Shown: positions 20,125 to 61,780 of the stretch, piece after piece
Layout: each line of letters begins with the position of its first letter
How positions within the stretch are numbered: position 1 is the first letter of the stretch
Assembly (NCBI GenBank): GCA_035645145.1
Contig: DASQNC010000074.1
Span: 1-64,000 of the forward strand
DNA: 64,000 nucleotides
Direction of reading: 5' to 3'
Origin: Azospirillaceae bacterium
Lineage (GTDB): Bacteria > Pseudomonadota > Alphaproteobacteria > Azospirillales > Azospirillaceae
Notes under the pieces: model-generated
What the model saw: the letters and a program-made list of their open reading frames with translations, nothing else
The model's database searches: none
Told to the model about the DNA's origin: nothing
Translations under genes and position numbers: made by a program

Positions 20125-21306
20125 ATGCCGCACGACGCCCGCCCCGCACCGTCCCACACCGCCCAGACGCCGACCGACGGCGCCGGCCCGCTCGCCCGTT
20201 ACCGGGCCTTGCTGGATGCCGGGGTCCTGCGCACGGATCCCATGCAGGCGCTGGCGGCGGAGAAGCTGGAAAGCCTCCACCACGCGCTGGCGGGCTACCG
20301 GCCGCAGACGGGATCCGGCGGCTGGCTGGCGCGGTTCGGCCTGGTCAAGCCGCGCGACCCCGACCCGCCGCAGGGGCTGTACATCTACGGCGACGTCGGC
20401 CGGGGCAAGTCCATGCTGATGGACCTGTTCTTCGAAGGCGCGCCGGTGGACCGCAAGCGGCGGGTCCACTTCAACGCCTTCATGCTGGAGGTGCACAAGC
20501 GCGTGCACGAGTGGCGGCAGGAGGCCAAGCTCGGCAAAGGCGGCGACGACCCGATCCCGCCACTGGCCCAGGCCGTGGCCGACGAGGCGTGGCTTCTGTG
20601 CTTCGACGAATTCCACGTCGTGGACATCGCCGACGCCATGATCCTCGGCCGGCTGTTCACCCGCCTGTTCGAGCTGGGCGTGGTGGTGGTGGCGACGTCC
20701 AACTGGCCGCCGGACGATCTGTACAAGGACGGGCTCCAGCGCGACCGCTTCCTGCCCTTCATCGCGATGTTGAAGGAGAAGCTGGACGTCCTGCACCTGG
20801 CGAGCCCGGTGGATTACCGGCTGGACCGCATCCGCGGCCAACCCGTCTACCATTGGCCACTGGGTCCGGCGACCACCGCCAAGCTGGACGCGGCCTTCGC
20901 CGACCTGACCGACAGTGCCGCCGGCACGTCCGAGGAGATCGAACTGCAGGGCCGGACCCTGCGCGTCCCGGCCGCCGCCCGCGGCGTGGCCCGGTTCCGC
21001 TTCGAGGACCTGTGCACCGAAGCGCGCGGATCGGCCGACTATCTGGCCGTGGCCCGGCGCTACCACACGGTGGTGCTGGACGGCGTGCCGCGCCTGAAGC
21101 CGGAGCAGCGCAACGAGGCCAAGCGCTTCATCCTGCTGATCGACGCCCTGTACGAGCACAAGGTGAAGCTGGTGATCGGCGCCGACGCCCCGCCCGACCG
21201 CCTGCACGCCGACGGCGACCACGCCTTCGAGTTCCAACGCACCGAAAGCCGCCTGATGGAGATGCAGGCGGGGGATTATTTGGCATTGCCGCACATCGGG
21301 GACTGA
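20125..21306 (+). CDS. zapE: cell division protein ZapE / AFG1-like ATPase
   Basis: 393 aa. The P-loop [14 protein letters not shown] (residues 87-100) and the Walker [12 protein letters not shown] identify the AFG1/ZapE family of AAA-like ATPases. In E. coli ZapE affects the Z-ring under low oxygen; the mitochondrial homologue works in turnover of respiratory subunits. In alphaproteobacteria the gene is often close to sdh genes, as here. Also seen are the sensor segment [18 protein letters not shown] and FRFEDLC. It reads divergently from tctBAC over a 195-bp gap. Confidence 0.93.
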
Positions 21307-21387: not shown

Positions 21388-21891
21388 TCACTGCCTCTGA
21401 CACCAAGGCCACCACCTTGCGCGCAGCCCAAGGTCGGTCCTTGCCAGCCTCTTGAAATCCGTCAGCGCAGCCTGAAGACGTCCGTCCCGGGCATTCCAGA
21501 AATCAAACTCATTCCCCTCGCCAGCTTGAACATTCAGATTTTTTATAAGTTTGTTGAGAAAGTTAACTGAACTCTCCGACAGAACCAGCAGACCATGTGC
21601 AGAAAATCTGCGAATATCGGAGATATGTTTTTCGTATTCTGATACCAAATGGTTCCGTTTTTGCTGAAGAGCCTTGTGATGCTCATCATCCGCGCCGTGT
21701 TTAGCGTAATGTATTTCTTCCATAAGATAGACTAGCTCACCTGTCGCCACGTGCGCCGCGACCATGGCGGCCAGCAAATCACCGTAAAGACGTAGGCGCA
21801 GATCACCCCAGGCGCGGCGCCGTTGAAGCCACGCTGCCAAAATGGTGGAGAAAACGCCGATGACTGCGGTGACGAGCCAATTGATCCACAT
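21388..21891 (-). CDS. hypothetical membrane-anchored protein, atypically AT-rich
   Basis: 167 aa from the ATG at 21891 (MWINWLVTAV); GAGGG lies nine bases upstream. A TTG six bases earlier is possible. Residues 2-21 form one transmembrane helix, followed by basic residues (QRRRAWGDLRLR), so the N-terminus is likely periplasmic and the rest cytosolic. The body is helical, with possible coiled-coil (KALQQKRNHLVSEYEKHI). No family recognised. The central part is strongly AT-rich: I count 45 G+C in 120 bases at 21541-21660, against roughly 70% around it, with AAA, ATA and TTT codons unused by its neighbours. This suggests recent acquisition. Confidence 0.7.
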   Translation of the reverse strand: MWINWLVTAVIGVFSTILAAWLQRRRAWGDLRLRLYGDLLAAMVAAHVATGELVYLMEEIHYAKHGADDEHHKALQQKRNHLVSEYEKHISDIRRFSAHGLLVLSESSVNFLNKLIKNLNVQAGEGNEFDFWNARDGRLQAALTDFKRLARTDLGLRARWWPWCQRQ

Positions 21892-21998
21892 GCTCAACGG
21901 CCCTCATGAAGCGTAGGTCCGCCGCCCAGGGTGGGGTGGGGTTGGCCTAGCGACGAGCCAGTACATGCGCTTTGTCCTGTAGCCCTTCGGAGACTCCC

Positions 21999-22622
21999 CT
22001 ACACCGCCTTCTTCGGCGGTCGTCCGCGGCGGACGTGGCCGGCGCGGCGGGTGGCGAGGCGGGTTTTGGCCGTGCTGAGGTATTCCGGGCTGACGTGGCC
22101 CAGCGCCGCCTCGATCCGGCCGCCGGGCGTGGGCGGTGGGGCCACCTCGGCCTCCACCAGCATCGCCAGCTTCCAGAAATAGGCCGCCACGAACGCGCGC
22201 AGGGCCGAGGAGACGTTGATGGACCGGCCTTCCTCGTCCTCCGGCACGGGACCGGCGACGTCGGGCGCCTCGTCCCCCTCGTCCGAAAGGGCACCGCCCC
22301 GGGCGGCCAGTGCCGCGGTCAGCCGACGGTCGCTGCGGACCTGGACCATGCGGCCCAGCTCGTGGATGGTCCGGCGCTCGCGCTCGGCGATCTCGTACAG
22401 CATCTCCCACAGCGACGGCTCCAGCCGCACGCTGGTGCGCTTCACGGACCAGCATTTCCGGTCACCATCCAGCACCCAGAGGTAAAGGTTGCCGGTATGG
22501 AGCTGCTGAACCTTCTCCGGCCCGCCGGCCGTCGCCCCATCCGGGGTGCCGGGTGCGACCCGCGAGGCCGTGGGGGGCAGATCGTTCACCGCTGGCCTTC
22601 CATCAATTGCATACGCTCGCAT
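21999..22622 (-). CDS. ribbon-helix-helix domain protein
   Basis: 207 aa from the ATG at 22622. The middle portion, KRTSVRLEPSLWEMLYEIAERE then RTIHEL, is the ribbon-helix-helix fold of the RHH_4 type (PF13467) found in alphaproteobacteria; ALRAFVAAYFWKLA follows as the second conserved block. Between the two lies an acidic linker. The C-terminus RRGRPPKKAV resembles an AT-hook. Probably a DNA-binding protein; targets unknown. The first ~50 residues are low complexity, so the start could lie further in. Its upstream region 22623-22761 is AT-richer than average and probably holds the promoter. Confidence 0.75.
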   Translation of the reverse strand: MRAYAIDGRPAVNDLPPTASRVAPGTPDGATAGGPEKVQQLHTGNLYLWVLDGDRKCWSVKRTSVRLEPSLWEMLYEIAERERRTIHELGRMVQVRSDRRLTAALAARGGALSDEGDEAPDVAGPVPEDEEGRSINVSSALRAFVAAYFWKLAMLVEAEVAPPPTPGGRIEAALGHVSPEYLSTAKTRLATRRAGHVRRGRPPKKAV

Positions 22623-22761
22623 GTAACCCCGGCTGGCCGTACATCCACAAACACTTGCAATGTAACGATGCCATCCCGCGTGAAACACACGCAAGCCGCT
22701 ACCTGGGATACAATCCGACGATAAACCGCCGATTCCATGTGCGGTTCATGCCGCCCGCGGC

Positions 22762-23031
22762 TCACACCTCGTCCGGCGCCAGGGTGGACAAGGACAGGGC
22801 GTGGACGCGCTCGGCCAGTTCCGCCGCCAGCAGATCGTAGACCATCCGCTGGCGCGCCACCCGGGATTTCCCGGCAAAGGCGGCCGAAACCACGGTGACG
22901 TGGAAGTGGGTTTCGCCGCGGGGGTCGTGGCCGGCGTGCCCGTGGTGCCGGGCGGATTCATCCACGATTTCCAGCCGGACGGGCGCCAGCGCGTCCTTCA
23001 GCTTGCGGCCTATGCGGTCGGCGTATTCCAT
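22762..23031 (-). CDS. bolA: BolA family protein
   Basis: 89 aa, typical BolA length. ATG at 23031 has CAGGAG upstream. Residues [23 protein letters not shown] form the class II KH-like fold; the conserved His and the loop with RxxRQRxV are present. BolA proteins pair with monothiol glutaredoxins in handling Fe-S clusters and iron sensing. A His-rich insert (ARHHGHAGH) precedes the core. It is divergent from the J-domain gene over 164 bp that hold a large inverted repeat. Confidence 0.9.
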
Positions 23032-23118
23032 GGCGAACTCCTGGCCTCGGGCGGTCCTGGCGGCAGGTATGGCCCCGGGTGCGCAGGCATGCAAGGCCGC
23101 CCCGCGACCGGGCGGTCC

Positions 23119-23175
23119 CCGGAGCCCTGGCAAGGCGCCCCGGGCGCGGCCAGGGGCGCCTTGCCAGGGCTCCGG
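23119..23175. repeat. 23-bp perfect inverted repeat, 11-nt loop
   Basis: Bases 23119-23141 are exactly complementary to 23153-23175. The arms centre on CCCTGGCAAGGCGCCCC and its complement. It lies between the divergent starts of bolA and the J-domain gene, 21 bp from the start of the latter, so it would form a hairpin in the 5' leader of one or both messages or a cruciform in DNA. Confidence 0.85.
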
Positions 23176-23195
23176 CCGGCCACCATACTTCGCCA

Positions 23196-23768
23196 ATGGC
23201 AAAGGAACGGGCCGCATACCGGCGCTTCAGTTTCGAGGAGCCGCCGCCCCAGGTACGCCGCTGCGACATGCAGGGGTGCGAGGGCGAGGGCGCGTACCGC
23301 GCGCCCAAGGGGCGCGACCGGCTGAACGACTACCACTGGTTCTGCCTGGACCACGTGCGCGAATACAATCGCGCCTGGGACTTCTACCGCGGCATGTCGG
23401 AGAAGGAGATCGAGCGGGCGCTGCGCAACGACATCACGTGGCAGCGGCCGACCTGGCCCATGGGGTCCTGGCAGGCGCGCGAACGGGCCATGCGCGAGAA
23501 GGTCATGCGCGACTTCGCCCACGGTGCCGACGAGGCCGAGAGCGCCGCCCGCCACGCCCCGCCGCCCCGCCGCAAGGGCCCCGAGGACGAGGCCAGGGCC
23601 GTGCTGGACGTGTCCGCCGACGCCGATTTCCCCGAAATCAAGGCCCGCTACCGCGAACTCGTGAAGCGCCACCACCCCGACGCCAACGGGGGCGACAAGG
23701 CCGCGGAGGAGAAACTCAAGCAGATCAATCAGGCCTACACGACGCTGAAAGCGTGCTACGGTGCCTGA
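23196..23768 (+). CDS. J-domain (DnaJ-like) protein
   Basis: 190 aa. The C-terminal J domain (about residues 130-188) holds the HPD motif in [21 protein letters not shown], needed to stimulate DnaK. The N-terminal half is particular to alphaproteobacteria: [38 protein letters not shown], possibly a small metal site from its Cys and His. It normally sits between bolA and cobS, as here. Client unknown. cobS starts 77 bp downstream. Confidence 0.9.
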
Positions 23769-23845
23769 GACCCGCTCGGCCCCGCCCCCCTGACTTCGAT
23801 GGCCGGCCCCGCCGGCAAAGACCCACTCGAACCAGCAAGAGACAC

Positions 23846-24838
23846 ATGGCGCCCGAAACCGCTCAGAGCCTCGGCACCGGCCTGCCCGACATCAAGGTTT
23901 CCGTCCGGCAGCTGTTCGGGATCGACACCGACATGATGGTTCCGGCCTTCAGCCAGCCGAACGAGCATGTGCCGGACATCGACGAGGCCTACCGCTTCGA
24001 CCCGGCGACCACGCTCGCGATCCTCGCCGGCTTCGCCCACAACCGGCGGGTCATGATCCAGGGCTACCACGGCACCGGCAAATCGACCCACATCGAGCAG
24101 GTGGCGGCCCGGCTGAATTGGCCGTGCATCCGCATCAACCTGGACAGCCACATCAGCCGTATCGACCTGGTGGGCAAGGACGCCATCGTCCTGCGCGACG
24201 GCAAGCAGGTGACGGAATACCGCGAGGGGCTGCTGCCCTGGGCGCTGCAGCACGCCTGCGCCATCGTGTTCGACGAGTACGACGCCGGCCGCCCCGACGT
24301 GATGTTCGTGATCCAGCGCGTGCTGGAGACCGACGGCAAGCTGACCCTGCTCGACCAGAACAAGGTCATCCGGCCGCATCCGGCGTTCCGCCTGTTCGCC
24401 ACCGCGAACACGGTGGGCCTGGGCGACACCACCGGCCTGTACCACGGCACCCAGCAGATCAACCAGGGCCAGATGGACCGCTGGAACGTGGTCGCCACCC
24501 TGAACTACCTGCCGGTGGAGGCCGAGGTCGAGATCGTGCTGGCCAAGATGCCGGGCTACAACACCGCCGAGGGCCGCCGGACGATCCAGTCCATGGTCCA
24601 GTTGGCGGACCTGACCCGCCACGGCTTCATCAACGGCGACATCTCGACCGTGATGAGCCCGCGCACCGTCATCACCTGGGCCCAGAACGCCGACATCTTC
24701 GGCGACGTCGCCACCGCCTTCCGCCTGACCTTCCTGAACAAGTGCGACGAGGTCGAGCGGGCGACCGTGGCCGAGTACTACCAGCGCTGCTTCGGCACGG
24801 AGCTTCCGGAAACCGGCGTGGGCACCGGCCGGGGTTGA
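23846..24838 (+). CDS. cobS: cobaltochelatase subunit CobS
   Basis: 330 aa, MoxR-like AAA+ ATPase subunit of the aerobic CobN-CobS-CobT complex that inserts cobalt into hydrogenobyrinic acid a,c-diamide. The P-loop is GYHGTGKST (residues 73-81), Walker B is AIVFDEYD, and the arginine-finger region is [10 protein letters not shown]. Full length. cobN is not in the window; cobT lies 2.9 kb away on the same strand, separated by two sugar-related genes. No cobalamin riboswitch is visible upstream. Confidence 0.96.
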
Positions 24839-24866
24839 TCCCCCGGCCTTCCCCGCACCTCCACGC

Positions 24867-25895
24867 TCAGTCGTCCACCTCGGGACGGCGGTAGAAGCGG
24901 CCGATCAGCTTGGCGATGCGGACGGCCCTTACCCGGCGCCGGTACTCGGCATCGGTGAAGGGCTTGATCGGGCCGTCCAGGTAGCGCCAGAAGATCTGGT
25001 GCGCCTTGTCCGGCGGCAGGCCGCGCAGCGCGTCGCGGATGTACGGCCGGGCCCAGGGCTTTTTCCGCCAATAGGCGTGCGACATGTAGAAGCCGTACGG
25101 GAAGACGGCATCCATCCCGTCCGGCCCGACCGACACCAGGGGCACGTCGCACCCCATGAGGGCGGCGTTGAACATGTCCTGGTCCATGAAATGGAAGGCC
25201 GAGGCGCGCGTCTTGTAGCGCCGGACATGGAAGGGCCGCCCCTCGTCCGGCAAGGCGGCGACCAGACGCATCCACACCTCGAGCAATCGCCCGCAATCCC
25301 GGGGCAACGCCAGGAACCCGCTGTTGTAGTAGCCGTGCACCTCGCGCACGGGCAGGCCGTGCTTTTCCAGCATCCGCGCCCAGTGCAGCTTCTTGGGGTG
25401 GGTGGGCAGCATGTAGGTGTCGGAGATGTCCAGCACTGCCCCCACGCCGAAGCCGGCCAGTTCCTCGAACACCGCCCATTCGTTCTTCACGACGATGTCC
25501 GCATCGAAGAAGAACAAGGCGTCGGCGTCCGGCGCCAGCTCGTCCAGCACCCGCACCAGCGCCCGGCCCTTCTGGAAGGCGAACAGCCCCTCGGCCTCCA
25601 ATTGGAAGAACCGCAGCGACACCGTGTCGGTCGCGTCCAGGCGGTGCCGGCCGGCACCGTCCGGGCGCGCGGCCCCCGCCCAAGGCGGCAGGGCACCCCG
25701 GTGGCCGATCCATAGGCTGCCCTGGTAGCCGTGGCGGATGAGCGAATTCGCCAGCGCGGCGGCCCCGAAGTGGAAATCCCCGTCGGCAAGGGTGCAGACG
25801 GCGGACCGCAGCCCGCCCGGCGCCACCCGAGCGCGCGCGGGCGCCGGGGCGGCAAGCCGTGTCCGCGATCCATCCTGTGCGACGCTGTCTGGCAT
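24867..25895 (-). CDS. putative glycosyltransferase (GT8-like fold)
   Basis: 342 aa. FFFDADIVV (Asp131, Asp133) is a DxD metal-nucleotide site; further support comes from YYNSGFLALPRDC and MDQDMFNAALMGC, the typical second half of GT-A transferases of the GT8 type. No membrane segment. Donor and acceptor are unknown. Convergent with cobS (28-bp gap) and divergent from the flippase gene, with which it may share a role in surface polysaccharide. Confidence 0.7.
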   Translation of the reverse strand: MPDSVAQDGSRTRLAAPAPARARVAPGGLRSAVCTLADGDFHFGAAALANSLIRHGYQGSLWIGHRGALPPWAGAARPDGAGRHRLDATDTVSLRFFQLEAEGLFAFQKGRALVRVLDELAPDADALFFFDADIVVKNEWAVFEELAGFGVGAVLDISDTYMLPTHPKKLHWARMLEKHGLPVREVHGYYNSGFLALPRDCGRLLEVWMRLVAALPDEGRPFHVRRYKTRASAFHFMDQDMFNAALMGCDVPLVSVGPDGMDAVFPYGFYMSHAYWRKKPWARPYIRDALRGLPPDKAHQIFWRYLDGPIKPFTDAEYRRRVRAVRIAKLIGRFYRRPEVDD

Positions 25896-26122
25896 CCACT
25901 CCCGCCTTCCTGCCGGGGCAACCGATCATTGGGACAAACGGGCAGGCCGCGGGTTTGTGTCAGCGGACGGCCGCGGCACTGGCGGCAAGCCTTCGAGACG
26001 AGAGCCCGGCAAAAGGGCTCCGATAAGGATTAGTCCGTCCCCTCCCCCCCACATCCCCCTGCGCGGTGGTCAACGGCCCGGCCGCCGATGCAAGACAGAA
26101 GCCCGCCCGTTGGACCGCATCA

Positions 26123-27565
26123 ATGGCAAGTCCCGGCCTCGCCATCCGGTCGCTCGCTTGGTCGCTGCTGGAAAGCGCGGTCGGCATCGGCCTGTCGTTC
26201 GTCACCGTCATCCTGATCGCGCGCAGCATCGGACCGGCCGAATTCGGCCTGTTCTCGCTGGCGCTGGTGACGGTCCAGATCATGACCGCCGGCCTCAGCC
26301 AACTGTTCAACGAAGCGATCGTCCAACGCGAGGATCTGGAGCCGAGCCACATCCACACGGCATTCTGGGCATCGGTGACCGTCAGCGTGTTGCTGACGGT
26401 CGGATGCCTGGTTGCCGCCTGGCTGCTGATCGAGGTGTACGACCAGGGCCGGCTGGGACGCGTGCTGGCGTGGCTGTCGGCCGGAGTGCTGCTGGAAGGC
26501 TTCACCGGCGTGCTGACCGCCGGCATGAAGCGGGAATTCCAGTTCCGCTGGATCGCCGTTCGCACCGCCATCGGCCGCGGCACCGGATCGGTCGTCGGCA
26601 TCGCCATGGCCGTCACGGGCTGGGGCATCTGGGCGCTGGTGGCCCAGTACCTCGTGGGGGCGTTGATCTCCACCGTCTTCACCTGGGTCGGCGCGCGCTT
26701 CCAGCCCCGGCGTGCCTGGTCCACCCGCCATCTCCGCGAACTGATGCAGGTCGCCCTGCCGTCGGTGACGGCGGCCTTCCTGTGGGTCCTGAGCATGCGC
26801 GTGTTCACCATCCTGGTGGGGGCGCTGATGGGACCGACGGCACTCGGCCATTTCAGCATGGCCTTCCGTCTGATCGACACCCTGCAGACCCTTACGCTGG
26901 GCGTCGTCAACAAGGTCGCCCTGCCCCTGCTGGCACGGCGGCAGACCGACCGCACGCACCTGATGGACGGCTTCGCCACGGCGACCGAGCGCACCGCGCT
27001 GGTCCTGGTGCCCACCTTCACCGGACTGGCGCTGGTCGCGCCGGAGTTGATCCCGCTGATGCTCGGCCCCGGGTGGGAACCGGCGATCCCGTCGCTCCAG
27101 GTCCTTGCGATCGGCCTGCTGCTGGTCTCCGTGGTCTACTTCCAACCCATCGTCCTGACCGCCATCGGCCGGGCCAAGCTGAACGTCATCGGGCCGGCGG
27201 CATCGATTGCGATCAGCCTGGGCCTGCTCGGCATCGTCCATCCGTACGGCGTGGTGGCGGCCACCTTCGCCTGGGTCGCCCGGCACGCCGTCACGGTGCC
27301 CCTGAACATCTGGCTGGTGCGGCGCGAACTGGATTTCGGCGTGCGGGGCCAATTGAGGGGGGTGATGGCCCCGGTGCTCTCCGCGGCGGTGATGACCGCC
27401 GCCGTGCTCTTCGTCTCGCCCATGCTGTTCGACGACGCGCCGGCCCTGCTCCGGTTGGCCGGGATCGTGGCGATGGGCGTTCTTGTCTATGGAATCTCCA
27501 TGCTGGCCCTGGCCCCGCGCATCCCGCGCGCAGTGGTACGGTCGCTGGCCGGCCTGCGTGCCTGA
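26123..27565 (+). CDS. polysaccharide flippase, MOP/Wzx-like
   Basis: 480 aa from the ATG at 26123; an in-frame GTG at 26066 has no better ribosome site. About 12-14 transmembrane helices. SIGPAEFGLFSLALVTVQI near residue 40 and the repeated GLGIVHPYG/VVAATFAW pattern fit lipid-linked oligosaccharide flippases of the MOP superfamily (PST branch). It would move undecaprenyl-linked glycans to the periplasmic face. Placed between cobS and cobT and opposite a glycosyltransferase, with no polymerase or ligase nearby. Confidence 0.8.
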   Translation: MASPGLAIRSLAWSLLESAVGIGLSFVTVILIARSIGPAEFGLFSLALVTVQIMTAGLSQLFNEAIVQREDLEPSHIHTAFWASVTVSVLLTVGCLVAAWLLIEVYDQGRLGRVLAWLSAGVLLEGFTGVLTAGMKREFQFRWIAVRTAIGRGTGSVVGIAMAVTGWGIWALVAQYLVGALISTVFTWVGARFQPRRAWSTRHLRELMQVALPSVTAAFLWVLSMRVFTILVGALMGPTALGHFSMAFRLIDTLQTLTLGVVNKVALPLLARRQTDRTHLMDGFATATERTALVLVPTFTGLALVAPELIPLMLGPGWEPAIPSLQVLAIGLLLVSVVYFQPIVLTAIGRAKLNVIGPAASIAISLGLLGIVHPYGVVAATFAWVARHAVTVPLNIWLVRRELDFGVRGQLRGVMAPVLSAAVMTAAVLFVSPMLFDDAPALLRLAGIVAMGVLVYGISMLALAPRIPRAVVRSLAGLRA

Positions 27566-27701
27566 GCACACCCGCCTGAGCGTACCCGGGCGCGGCTTGG
27601 CCGCATGTCGCGCCCTTTGCACGGCGCCGTCGGCATGACTATCGTCTAGGCATTGGCTTTCCCGCGGACGCCCCTGGGCCCCGCCTTCGACCGAGCGCCA
27701 C

Positions 27702-29582
27702 ATGTCCGAGCGCGAGACCCCGATCGAAACCTTCAAGCGCGCCACGTCGGGCTGCGTCCGCGCCATGTCCGCGAAGCCGGAGATCCAGGTCGGCTTCACC
27801 ACCGAGGCGCCGGGGCTTTCCGGCCCGCGGGTGCGGGTGCCCGTGCCGCCGCGCGACCTGAACCCGCGCGAGGTCGCGCTGGTTCGCGGCGCCGCCGATG
27901 CGGTGGCCCTTCGCCTGCGCCACCACGATCCGGCCCTGCACGCGCAGCGGATGCCCACCGGCGAGACCGCCCGCGCCGCCTTCGAGGCGCTGGAGCAGGT
28001 CCGGTGCGAGGCGCTGGGCGCACGGTCCATGGCCGGCGTCGCGGCCAACCTGGGCGCGGCGTTGGACGAGCGCTACCGCCGCCAGGGCTTCGACCGCGTC
28101 ACCGACCGCGAACAGGCCCCCCTGCCCGAAGTCATGCGCCTGCTGGTGCGCGAGGCGCTGACCGGCGACGCCCCGCCGGAGTCCGCCCGCCCGGCCGTGG
28201 AGATGTGGCGTCCGTGGGTGGAGGCGCGCGTCGGCGGAAAGCTGGGCAACCTCTCGGCACTCCTGGACGACCAGGACGGCTACGCCCGCGCCGTGCGCCG
28301 GCTGCTGCAGGACATGGACCTGGAGGTGGGCGCGGAACCCGAGCCCGACGAGGCGGAGGGCGAGGACGACGAGAACGACAGCGGCGAAAACCAGAACGAA
28401 ACGTCCGACGATCAATCCGGCGGCGGCGAGCAGGACAGCGCGGACGACCAGATGTCCTCGCAGCCGCAGTCGGACGGGGCCGACCAGGACGCCGGTGGCG
28501 AAGGTGTGGAGGAAGTCGAGGGCGAGACCGCCGACGGGGAAGGCGACGAGGAGCCGGGCGCACCCGGCCGGCCGTGGCGGCCCGAATACGACCGCCGCAA
28601 CGACGTCGATCCGAACGCCTACAGGGCCTTCACCACCAAGTTCGACGAGATCGTCGACGCCGACCAACTGTGCGACGCGGACGAGCTGGCGCGGCTGCGC
28701 GTGCTGCTCGACCAGCAGCTCCAGCACCTTCAAGGGGTGATCGCCAAACTGGCCAACCGCCTGCAACGGCGGCTTCTGGCGAAGCAGCAGCGGGCGTGGG
28801 AATTCGACCTGGAGGAAGGCATCCTCGACGCCGCGCGCCTGTCGCGCATCGTGGTCAACCCCGCCCTGCCCCTGTCCTACAAGATCGAGAAGCAGACGGA
28901 TTTCCGGGACACCGTCGTCTCGCTGCTGATCGACAATTCCGGTTCCATGCGCGGCCGGCCGATCACCATCGCCGCCATGAGCGCCGACATCCTGGCCCGC
29001 ACGCTGGAACGCTGCGGCGTGAAGGTGGAGGTCCTGGGCTTCACCACCCGGGCCTGGAAGGGCGGTTCCTCGCGCGAGGAATGGCTGCAGGCGGGCAAGC
29101 CGCCCAATCCCGGCCGGCTGAACGACCTGCGCCACATCGTCTACAAGGGCGCGGACGCCCCGTGGCGCCGGGCGCGCAAGAACCTGGGCCTGATGCTGCG
29201 CGAAGGCATCCTGAAGGAGAACATCGACGGCGAAGCGCTGATGTGGGCCCACAACCGCCTCATCGCGCGGCCGGAGGAACGGCGCATCCTGATGGTCATC
29301 TCCGACGGCGCGCCGGTGGACGACTCCACGCTGTCGGTGAGCTCCGGCAACTACCTGGAACGCCACCTGCGCCAGGTGATCGAGTACATCGAGACCCGCA
29401 GCCCGGTCGAGCTGGTGGCCATCGGCATCGGCCACGACGTCACCCGCTACTACCGCCGCGCCGTCACCATCGTGGACGCCGAGCAGCTGGGCGGCACCAT
29501 GATGGAGAAGCTGGCCGAGCTGTTCGACGAGGAAGGCCGCCGGCCGGGCCGGCCACTCCGGGGCGGGCGCCGCGCGGCCTGA
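27702..29582 (+). CDS. cobT: cobaltochelatase subunit CobT
   Basis: 626 aa. Partner of CobS in the chelatase chaperone ring. The N-terminal CobT domain runs to ~210; residues ~213-290 are a highly acidic, disordered linker rich in Asp, Glu, Gln and Gly; the C-terminal VWA domain has an intact MIDAS motif DNSGSM (Asp411, Ser413, Ser415) and SDGAPVDD. Separation from cobS by two unrelated genes is unusual, since the pair is commonly adjacent. Confidence 0.96.
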
Positions 29583-58053: not shown

Positions 58054-60393
58054 TCAGGCGTCGCGGGAGGCGACGGGCAGGATGCAATCCACCCGGGTGC
58101 CCTGGCTGGGCTGGCTGTTCAAACGCACCCGCCCGCCATGCATCTCGACGAAGTTCTTTGCGAGTGTCAGGCCCAATCCCACACCGGTCTGGCGTTGGCT
58201 GGTGCTGGCCCGCTCGAAACGCCCGAACACCCGTTCGTGGTCCCTGGCCGCGATGCCGACGCCGGTGTCGGACACGGACAGAACCAGCTCATCGCCATCC
58301 CTGGTGGCGGACAGGACGATCCGGCCGCCGGCGGGGGTGAACTTGACCGAGTTGGAAACGAGGTTGAACAACGCCTGCTTGATCCGCTTGTCGTCGATTT
58401 CGGCCGTCCCGATGTCGGCCGGCACATCGAGCGAGATGGACAGCCGCTCCTTCTCCGCCCAACTGCGGGTCAGGTCCACGACGCTTGCCAGGAGTGCGCG
58501 CACATCCGTGGGCACGCGCTCCAGCTTCATGAAGCCGGCCTCGATGGTGGCCAGGTCGAGAATGTCGTCGACCAGCAGCAGCAGGTGCTTGCCGCTGTCC
58601 AGCATCGCCGAGACGTATTCCGCCTGCTTTTCGTTCAAGTGGCCGAAGTACCTGTTCTGCAGCAATTCCGCGAAGCCCATGATGGCGTTCAAGGGGGTGC
58701 GCAGCTGGTAGGAGACGTTGGCGATGAACTCCGACTTCAGCCGGTCGGCCAATGCCAGCGCGCGGTTGGACTCGCGCAGGGCCTGCTCCACCCGAACGGT
58801 GTCGCTGATGTCCAGGAAGCTGGCGATGACGGCGCCATCGGGCAGCGGAACGGTCGTGTACTGGACGATGCTGCCGTCCTTCCGTTCGACGCGGCCGCTG
58901 GCCTGGTCCCGGCCGAAGGCCATCGCCGCGATGTCACGGGCGAAGGCCGCCCAGCCCGCGTTGTCGGCAAAGAACCCGCGCAGCTTTTGCACCACCTCGG
59001 ACAGGTGGGGCTGGCCGGCCATATCCGTTTCGCCGAGTGCCCATATGCTCCGGAAGGCGGGATTGGACAGGCGCAGGCGCCCATCGCCACCGAACACGGC
59101 GATGCCTTCCGAAAGGTTGTCCAGTGTCTCGCGCTGGACGGCCATGAGGGTGTTGTAGCTCGACTCAAGCTGCAGCCGGTCGGTCACATCCTCCATGATG
59201 AACATAAGCCCGCCGAAGGGATGCGGGACCACGAGCTGGCGCTGCGTGGTGTCGTCCGGCAGGTGCAGCAGATCCTCCCGCGGCTCGATCAAGGATGTGA
59301 AGAGGGACAGCATCTCCCTCTTGTAGCGCGGGAAATTCGCCGCCTCGGGCAAGCGTCGGCGATTGCGCAATTCCTCCAGCACGTCGCCGAAATTGGGCTC
59401 GGTGGACAGCCAGCCCTCGTCCAAACCGGACAGGCGCACATAGGCCTGGTTGAAAAAGCGCAGCCGGGTGTCGGGCCCGTAGATGACGATCGCCGATCCC
59501 AGCCGCTCAAGAACCTGGGCATGGCCGGTGATGTGCCGCCCCAGTTCAGCCTGCAGCCCCTCGTGGTCGGTCAGGTCCAGGGCGTGGCCCGCCAAGGCGG
59601 CGGCCCCGGCCCCGGCGACCGGCACCTCGAACGCCTCGATCAGGCGCCGTTCGCCGGCGATGACCACATGGCTCCGACGGGAGCGCGGCGTTGCTTCGGC
59701 CAGGGCTTCGAGGGCCAATGCCCGGCCGAAGCGCGGGTCGAGTTCAACCTGGCTGTCCACGACCCCTTCGGGGTGATCGGCATCCACGGCCTCCGTATAG
59801 GCGGCGTTGACCCAGATCAGGCATCCCTGGAGGTCCCGCAACCAGACGGGATAAGGCAGTTCGTCCAGCGCCGCACGCAGCGCCGGCGCATCCAGGCCGG
59901 CCGGGCCGGCCCGTGGGACCAGCCACAGGATTGCGCCATCGGGATCGGGGGAAAGGTTCGCCTGAAAGGACCGGCCATCCCGGGTTCGGACGACGAAGGC
60001 ACGGGGCACGCCCGTGGCCAAAGCCGCGTCGAGCGCGAAAGCCGTGTCGTCCAGGGTGGACGACAACGCATCCCTGTCGCGCGGTGCGGCCCCGACCAGC
60101 TCGTCGAAGCCCGGTCCAGGCTGGATGGTGCGATCGTGGCCGATCAGGCACCAGGCGCCAGGCGCGGCCTCCATGGCGCGCTGCTGCAGGGACCGGCCGT
60201 TGGCATTGCCCGCTGCCCCCTGGGACCGGCGCCCGACACGCCAAAGCATGCCGGCCCAAACCAAAAAACCGAACAAGGCATCCGCATCCGCACCCGCGCC
60301 GGCCCAGGTGCCTGCAAAGGCCGGTTCGGCCAATAGCAGGACAGGCACAGAGATCGCCAAGCGTTTGGCGAACCGACGATGAGCGAGATGCAT
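58054..60393 (-). CDS. divL: PAS-domain sensor kinase with Tyr for His, DivL-like
   Basis: 779 aa from the ATG at 60393; a longer TTG start at 60429 would fall within the terminator of ahcY. Two N-terminal hydrophobic segments (about residues 10-27 and 40-58), then several PAS-like domains, a dimerisation helix, and a HATPase domain with N box (NLVSNSVKF), G1 (SDTGVGIA), F box and G2 (GVGLGLTLAKNF). The phosphoacceptor position is Tyr562 in NVSYQLRTPLNAI, where ordinary kinases have His. This is the diagnostic feature of DivL, which regulates CckA and thereby CtrA in the alphaproteobacterial cell cycle. Symbol is by similarity. Confidence 0.85.
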   Translation of the reverse strand: MHLAHRRFAKRLAISVPVLLLAEPAFAGTWAGAGADADALFGFLVWAGMLWRVGRRSQGAAGNANGRSLQQRAMEAAPGAWCLIGHDRTIQPGPGFDELVGAAPRDRDALSSTLDDTAFALDAALATGVPRAFVVRTRDGRSFQANLSPDPDGAILWLVPRAGPAGLDAPALRAALDELPYPVWLRDLQGCLIWVNAAYTEAVDADHPEGVVDSQVELDPRFGRALALEALAEATPRSRRSHVVIAGERRLIEAFEVPVAGAGAAALAGHALDLTDHEGLQAELGRHITGHAQVLERLGSAIVIYGPDTRLRFFNQAYVRLSGLDEGWLSTEPNFGDVLEELRNRRRLPEAANFPRYKREMLSLFTSLIEPREDLLHLPDDTTQRQLVVPHPFGGLMFIMEDVTDRLQLESSYNTLMAVQRETLDNLSEGIAVFGGDGRLRLSNPAFRSIWALGETDMAGQPHLSEVVQKLRGFFADNAGWAAFARDIAAMAFGRDQASGRVERKDGSIVQYTTVPLPDGAVIASFLDISDTVRVEQALRESNRALALADRLKSEFIANVSYQLRTPLNAIMGFAELLQNRYFGHLNEKQAEYVSAMLDSGKHLLLLVDDILDLATIEAGFMKLERVPTDVRALLASVVDLTRSWAEKERLSISLDVPADIGTAEIDDKRIKQALFNLVSNSVKFTPAGGRIVLSATRDGDELVLSVSDTGVGIAARDHERVFGRFERASTSQRQTGVGLGLTLAKNFVEMHGGRVRLNSQPSQGTRVDCILPVASRDA

Positions 60394-60423
60394 CGGAAGG
60401 AAACTAACTGCCGAGACTCCAAA

Positions 60424-60456
60424 TGACAAGCGGGCGGCCCCGCTGGGACCGCCCGC
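60424..60456 (-). terminator. intrinsic terminator between ahcY and divL
   Basis: An 8-bp stem GCGGGCGG (60430-60437) with complement at 60449-60456 and inner C-G pairs. On the minus strand it is followed by TTGTCATTTGG. It lies 23 bp after the ahcY stop and before the divL start, so divL probably has its own promoter or relies on read-through. Confidence 0.6.
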
Positions 60457-60478
60457 CTCGGCTTCGAAACGCGTTGAA

Positions 60479-61780
<1,302 letters not shown>

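Follow-up and report, generated by a model that had tools for sequence, protein, structure and literature searches.

The window analysed here is a stretch of 64,000 nucleotides from an Azospirillaceae bacterium (contig DASQNC010000074.1), and the gene under study is a short open reading frame (ORF) located between zapE and a ribbon-helix-helix (RHH) gene. The features of the locus are listed below.

20125..21306, plus strand: zapE (AFG1-like ATPase), left flank; Pfam AFG1_ATPase, E=8.8e-120
21388..21891, minus strand: gene of a single-pass membrane protein of 167 aa, very probably a divergent member of the phrog_17948 family; translation, profile match and model
about 21450..21800, no strand: AT-rich core of the gene; GC 0.39–0.53 in 100-bp windows
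21823..21891, minus strand: N-terminal membrane helix, residues 1–23, followed by a basic RRR; Kyte-Doolittle 19-residue maximum of 1.79
21421..21798, minus strand: predicted four-helix bundle, about residues 32–157, presumably cytosolic; model helices and matches to bundles
21999..22694, minus strand: RHH_4 ribbon-helix-helix gene, right flank and edge of a block syntenic with a congener; Pfam RHH_4, E=3.7e-11

The coordinates of the ORF agreed with those of the original prediction. Its start codon is the ATG at 21891, with a TTG at 21897 as a possible alternative start, and no promoter-like site was found for it. The base composition of the ORF was clearly different from that of its surroundings: GC was 0.52, compared with a window mean of 0.696 (sd 0.032 in 504-bp windows), and among all 504-bp windows taken in 60-bp steps the lowest GC values belonged to those covering the ORF, the next distinct minimum being 0.593 near 60361. 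The G+C content of about 37% claimed for 21541-21660 was reproduced by computation (0.375). Within the ORF, codons 57–140 had a GC of 0.42–0.44, and both ends of the gene had 0.60–0.63. The GC3 value was 0.548, as against 0.929 in zapE, 0.823 in the RHH gene, 0.963 in CobS, and 0.945 in TctC. The codons AAA, ATA, TTT, and AAT together accounted for 15 of the 167 codons, compared with 13 of 2288 across seven flanking genes; the description of these codons as common here only is therefore fair with respect to those neighbors. The second-lowest GC stretch of the window, at 60181-60900 (0.59–0.62), covers the region from a PAS/histidine-kinase gene to the end of an adenosylhomocysteinase gene, both named by reading their translations, and its low GC is probably ordinary.

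To the right of the ORF, genes encoding RHH, BolA, J-domain, CobS, glycosyltransferase, and Wzx-like proteins lie at 21999-27896; all these names, except that of RHH, were assigned by reading the translations. The block was syntenic at 22011-27896 with the single congener compared (L067), and the match to the congener ended just beyond RHH. In 20 relatives, the stretch that follows zapE, which was about 6 kb long except in two relatives whose contigs ended at about 1 and 5 kb, contained no match to RHH, BolA, or CobS. Outside the genus, conservation of the RHH gene is poor: 10 of 16 genomes gave a match, in most cases spanning about 45–95 residues. Taken by itself, the lack of RHH behind zapE in distant relatives is therefore weak evidence; the same test also covered BolA and CobS. 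The ORF is located at a junction that was not seen in any relative examined, with a rearrangement point between zapE and the RHH gene. The zapE gene of one relative (L024, genome G052) has one in-frame TAG within the match, which may reflect a pseudogene, a sequencing error, or an assembly fault.

Searches of 81 other genomes of the host family gave no match to the ORF at E<=0.01, either with the protein or with the family profile described below. The genomes examined for the order are the same 82 as those examined for the family. Orthologues of matching low GC in the same place across the order, which had been named in advance as the observation contrary to acquisition, were looked for in the 81 genomes and the 20 stretches after zapE and were not found. 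The ORF is marked by neither a flanking repeat nor a tRNA, and no phage gene, integrase, or mobile gene was apparent, by reading, in the ORFs adjoining on either side. With no tRNA, repeat, or apparent integrase in place, the vehicle that carried the gene is either gone or was never a phage.

The protein was predicted to consist of a single membrane helix at the N-terminus, followed by a helical body, as originally proposed. Residues 1–23 are hydrophobic and belong to a longer helix in a confident model. A second, borderline Kyte-Doolittle peak (1.66, residues 39–57) belongs to the bundle in the model; this peak was present in none of the 44 relatives described below, and the first in 43 of them. 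The AlphaFold2 model built with a 32-row alignment of relatives (A6) had a pLDDT of 91.8 and a pTM of 0.78, and that built from the lone sequence had a pLDDT of 59.7; such a rise is expected if the alignment is right. The model helices span residues 2–63 (continuous, the first 23 hydrophobic), 69–102, 106–119, and 128–154. The helical body ends near a conserved A-x-x-x-L, present in the window protein too, whose A150 and L154 show almost no variation across A6. Thus, the helical nature attributed to the body follows from the confident model, and its attribution to the cytosol follows from charge: the C-terminal body should be cytosolic because the basic residues come after the membrane part (positive-inside rule).

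The fold comparison was uninformative, returning only generic bundles. A Foldseek search with the model gave no match at E<=0.001 in PDB and BFVD. The VIA-align matches to four-helix bundles covered about residues 25–158 of the model, and the best of them, a designed helical bundle (Z 13.4, rmsd 2.6, 120 aligned), was at a level common for bundles. Csx28 and HEPN proteins were absent among the fold matches listed, which excludes nothing. The best hit of the A6 profile among solved structures (E=0.0072, gp41-5 construct) covered 46 helical positions and is not believable.

Direct searches with the window protein revealed no match in genome contigs, phages, plasmids, or viral contigs, none in NCBIfam, and no PADLOC family at E<=10; the best E-value among solved structures was 0.56. 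The Pfam model DUF6563 (E=0.069) was dropped, as the match lay under its own cut-off. The phrog_17948 model gave E=0.07, with a co-linear alignment of residues 7–120 to profile positions 6–124. Relatives of this solitary AT-rich gene in a GC-rich chromosome could nevertheless be traced by stepwise recruitment. A search of 398 genomes of the phylum with the window protein gave three matches at E<=0.01 beyond the protein itself. One of them, locus L087, had E=3.8e-4 for one genome, a level expected by chance about 0.15 times across the 398 genomes; the family claim is carried by the later profiles. The search also matched L088 and L089. The L087 protein (154 aa) is co-linear with the window protein and 30% identical to it (BLASTP, 34% over 79 residues). 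It has the same plan, that is, an N-terminal hydrophobic helix and a helical body, with ESSVN and ARxDL-like segments in common, and it matched phrog_17948 with E=6.6e-13. The L087 gene sits in a Mu-like prophage beside GemA, between the Mor activator and peptidase M15, and was also found on a viral contig; L087, L096, and L156 are one and the same prophage gene. In 385 genomes of the class, the phrog_17948 model found two copies of the family and missed the genome of the window itself at E<=0.001. A match to the window protein within the class, L027 (E=5e-4), lies in a frame of 532 codons.

Annotated phage and plasmid proteins of the family were reached from L087, and a pattern made from five members collected 51 viral and 19 genome loci. 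Six of these 70 loci were dropped, their proteins being shorter than 120 aa by the extension rule (L121, L144, L151, L158, L164, and L165): L144 matched over a short part only, L151 and L158 stop after 10 codons (an artefact or a real stop), and L164 and L165 are short frames. In the viral contig L121 (3932-4435), the copy stops after 46 codons and the match extends further; this is possibly a broken copy. The addition of four relatives brought the set to 68 proteins, and clustering at 80% reduced it to 44. Five weak matches in the host family (L002-L006, E 0.03–0.09) were dropped; by reading, the L002 match lies in a TIR-like ORF, and the L005 match falls inside a DNA polymerase I gene by position but in another frame. 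Scattered matches of A6 rows to Pfam (best 0.0008; DICT 0.00094, ESAG1 0.00081), NCBIfam (best 0.012; antiphage ProA 0.026 in two rows, ZorA_3 0.039 in one row), and PADLOC (REase_II 0.00068, PDC-S65 0.0012) were taken as chance for 32 rows, since none was common to more than three rows.

The profiles built from the recruited proteins recognized the window protein. Built from 43 non-redundant relatives, with both the window protein and L096 excluded, one profile recovered the window protein at E=1.1e-8 (33.3 bits); the search set comprised the protein itself, 509 window frames, and 4000 shuffles, of which the best reached 0.66. With the 12 genome-contig relatives alone, the value was 2.5e-8 (best shuffle 0.85), and with the 27 viral relatives alone it was 1.2e-4 (best shuffle 0.28). 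The profile of nine CobraSix-like relatives was weak, with 0.011 for the window protein and 0.58 for the best shuffle. With L096 included in the profile, residues 3–155 of the window protein aligned to profile positions 9–164; the entry win_-1_14032 in that search is the same ORF, read from stop to stop. All 32 rows of A6 matched phrog_17948 at E<=1, the row of the window protein weakly (0.076). The match of the A6 profile to the window gene itself arises by construction. The claim of membership rests on the enlarged family, because the model of PHROG itself gives only 0.07; on this basis, the ORF at 21388-21891 very probably belongs to phrog_17948. The statement that the protein has no known family was thus wrong: it is a new, divergent member of an already known, uncharacterised family, although Pfam, NCBIfam, and PADLOC hold no fitting model. 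An apparent orphan thereby becomes a member of a phage-cargo family that lacks a fitting Pfam or NCBIfam model. A literature search by the family name phrog_17948 found no papers.

The window protein is divergent: its identity to the relatives does not exceed 24% in the large alignment. An eight-column gap precedes its tryptophan, in the columns that hold the end of the membrane segment and FYxE in the relatives, and it has a single W against their WW; the juxtamembrane part reads RRRAWGD in the window protein and FYxEKWWE in most rows. The constancy of EKWW is partly a matter of construction, as the recruiting pattern, used for 64 of the 68 sequences, demands it; two relatives found without this pattern read EKLWE and ERIWQ. 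The segments LSESSVNFL and LARTDL, which are common with L087, are kept. The protein runs about 12 residues past the usual end of the family, as do some relatives.

The family is largely phage-borne, and its members occupy several kinds of slots in temperate phages. They were found in phages of Enterobacterales, in a Mu-like prophage of Vreelandella, on plasmids of fish pathogens, and in MAG contigs labelled Calditrichota, Omnitrophota, Microgenomates, and others. Among 28 non-redundant viral loci, the neighbors within three genes included xis/int in six, endolysin/Rz in six, the N antiterminator in four, head genes in three, a repressor in three, a tail gene in one, HNH in one, and Mor together with an endolysin in one Mu-like prophage, and three loci had no label. 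In these counts, the genes were picked by a longest-ORF rule, so that some are certainly wrong, and seed labels were assigned by reading the proteins. A PHROG scan of 99 neighbors returned integrase, excisionase, endolysin, Rz, N-like, and head families; neither the repressor nor the HNH label has a counterpart in the 25 families shown. Two annotated family members, p04 of Serratia phage vB_SspS_OS31 and CobraSix_34 of an Enterobacter phage, are carried in complete phage genome records one to three genes from an excisionase and an integrase, the latter annotated in CobraSix as a DUF3596 protein. Both are 15–17% identical to the window protein in alignment A2. Around two plasmid relatives, restriction genes lie within about 3.5 kb, and the annotated 8 kb contains no lysis or repressor module. 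In L157 (Shewanella gelidimarina), the next ORF after the family member encodes a small protein that is hydrophobic at its start.

The low GC content is also a property of the relatives. In the 40 of the 44 clustered relatives that came from locus searches, GC was lower than in the rest of the respective locus in 38 (median difference 0.114), lower by 0.05 or more in 31, and within the lowest 5% of the windows of the locus in 26. AT-richness therefore goes with the family. Phage morons typically show both variable sites and low GC. The window protein resembles the family in its near full-length co-linear profile match, in the combination of an N-terminal helix with a helical body, and in its GC content, which is low for its context; it differs in that its gene lies on a chromosome with no apparent phage gene adjoining.

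Taken together, the absence of the gene in the 81 family genomes, its position at a synteny breakpoint, its foreign composition, and the largely phage-borne nature of the family support the horizontal acquisition of the gene, which is alone at its locus; the original suggestion that it looks acquired is borne out. The low GC might also be accidental, in a gene that is native and vertically inherited or in an open frame that arose by chance; the E-value of only 0.07 given by the PHROG model could be argued in favor of this. This explanation is already contradicted and has hardly any probability left: no match was present in any of the 81 other family genomes, the profile of relatives gave E=1.1e-8 with an alignment over residues 3–155, and the GC of the ORF is the lowest of the window. 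The gene might also be a decaying remnant, brought by a mobile element that has since been lost and having no present function. The absence of an apparent mobile gene next to the ORF, the loss of most of FYxEKWWE, and the GC of 0.60–0.63 at the gene ends are consistent with this. However, the reading frame is uninterrupted through all 167 codons, the predicted fold has high confidence, and the LSESSVNFL and LARTDL segments are kept; a remnant is improbable.

The reading that we tentatively prefer, though its probability stays somewhat below even, is that the gene is lone acquired phage cargo (a moron) of phrog_17948 with an anti-phage function at the inner membrane, that is, superinfection exclusion or a related activity. 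According to this reading, the gene would have been brought in horizontally and would now be stranded on the chromosome between zapE and the RHH gene. The N-terminal helix would anchor the protein in the inner membrane and run on into the four-helix bundle, leaving the C-terminal body in the cytosol, and in a lysogen or another bearer cell the protein would act at the membrane to impede the entry of a second phage or its establishment. The orientation, any oligomerisation, the anti-phage role, and the continued working of the window copy are all inferred. Assignment to a defence or stress module, as originally suggested, is conjectural, as the gene stands alone here; defence is the likeliest inference because of the phage slots of the relatives. 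A general parallel is provided by SieB of lambda and P22 and SieA of P22, which, like the family, are small membrane proteins of temperate phages. The sieB gene of lambda and P22 adjoins N, and four of the 28 viral relatives lie near N, but sieB and N are on opposite strands, whereas the relatives share a strand with N. No sequence relation was found: the family profile scored lambda SieB, P22 SieB, P22 SieA, and RexB all below 0 bits (from -0.3 to -1.3 bits for the two SieB proteins and SieA). In addition, three membrane segments are predicted for SieA (PMC10883804).

An accessory phage protein that tunes physiology (the timing of lysis, or the activity of a receptor or transporter) and acts as a modulator of lysogeny or lysis, not in defence, is a somewhat unlikely explanation. 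Six of the 28 viral loci lie near endolysin/Rz and three near a repressor, as such a protein might. The sites nevertheless vary among phages (int/xis, N, head, lysis), which argues against a role bound to one module, and the two plasmid relatives have neither a lysis nor a repressor module in their annotated surroundings. We also considered abortive defence by a depolarising membrane pore similar to Csx28, in which the helix and bundle would oligomerise as an inner-membrane ring that opens on infection. Csx28 and tm_HEPN, accessories of type VI-B CRISPR, are built on the same overall plan: a single membrane helix at the N-terminus is combined with a helical domain of comparable size, and the lengths of their PADLOC models are 175 and 178. 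Csx28 is described as a transmembrane segment with a HEPN domain that forms a depolarising octameric pore (PMC12669027, PMC13153721). In PADLOC, the relative L150 matched tm_HEPN with E=0.0026 and Csx28 with E=0.0044, both alignments being co-linear and starting at the N-terminus, and one relative matched the NCBIfam Csx28 model (E=0.068). However, the PADLOC matches occurred in only one of the 32 rows of A6, and the window protein had none, while unrelated models scored as well in the same scan (REase_II 0.00068, PDC-S65 0.0012). Among solved structures at E<=10, the A6 profile listed no chain of Csx28, although the library may lack one. The HEPN motif is R-x4-6-H; A6 has no nearly invariant arginine or histidine, so that this motif is not conserved in the family. 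A Csx28-like pore is therefore unlikely. Still more doubtful is its fullest form, in which phrog_17948 as a whole would be a free-standing Csx28-like anti-phage effector, with a membrane helix and a HEPN-like bundle but no CRISPR, swapped as a one-gene module by temperate phages, plasmids, and islands across distant phyla, the window copy being domesticated and divergent.

Returning to the preferred reading of phage cargo acting against other phages, the window protein, to judge from the loss of most of the FYxEKWWE motif, may be drifting or disused. The interest of the finding lies at the level of the family, not in the window gene alone: its members occur in many phage slots, on plasmids, and in MAG contigs of distant phyla, and are nearly always AT-rich relative to their surroundings. 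Selected cargo, such as exclusion or defence genes, typically recurs in different phage slots and has low GC. The recurrent slots and low GC thus make the family a candidate for anti-phage (plaque) testing.
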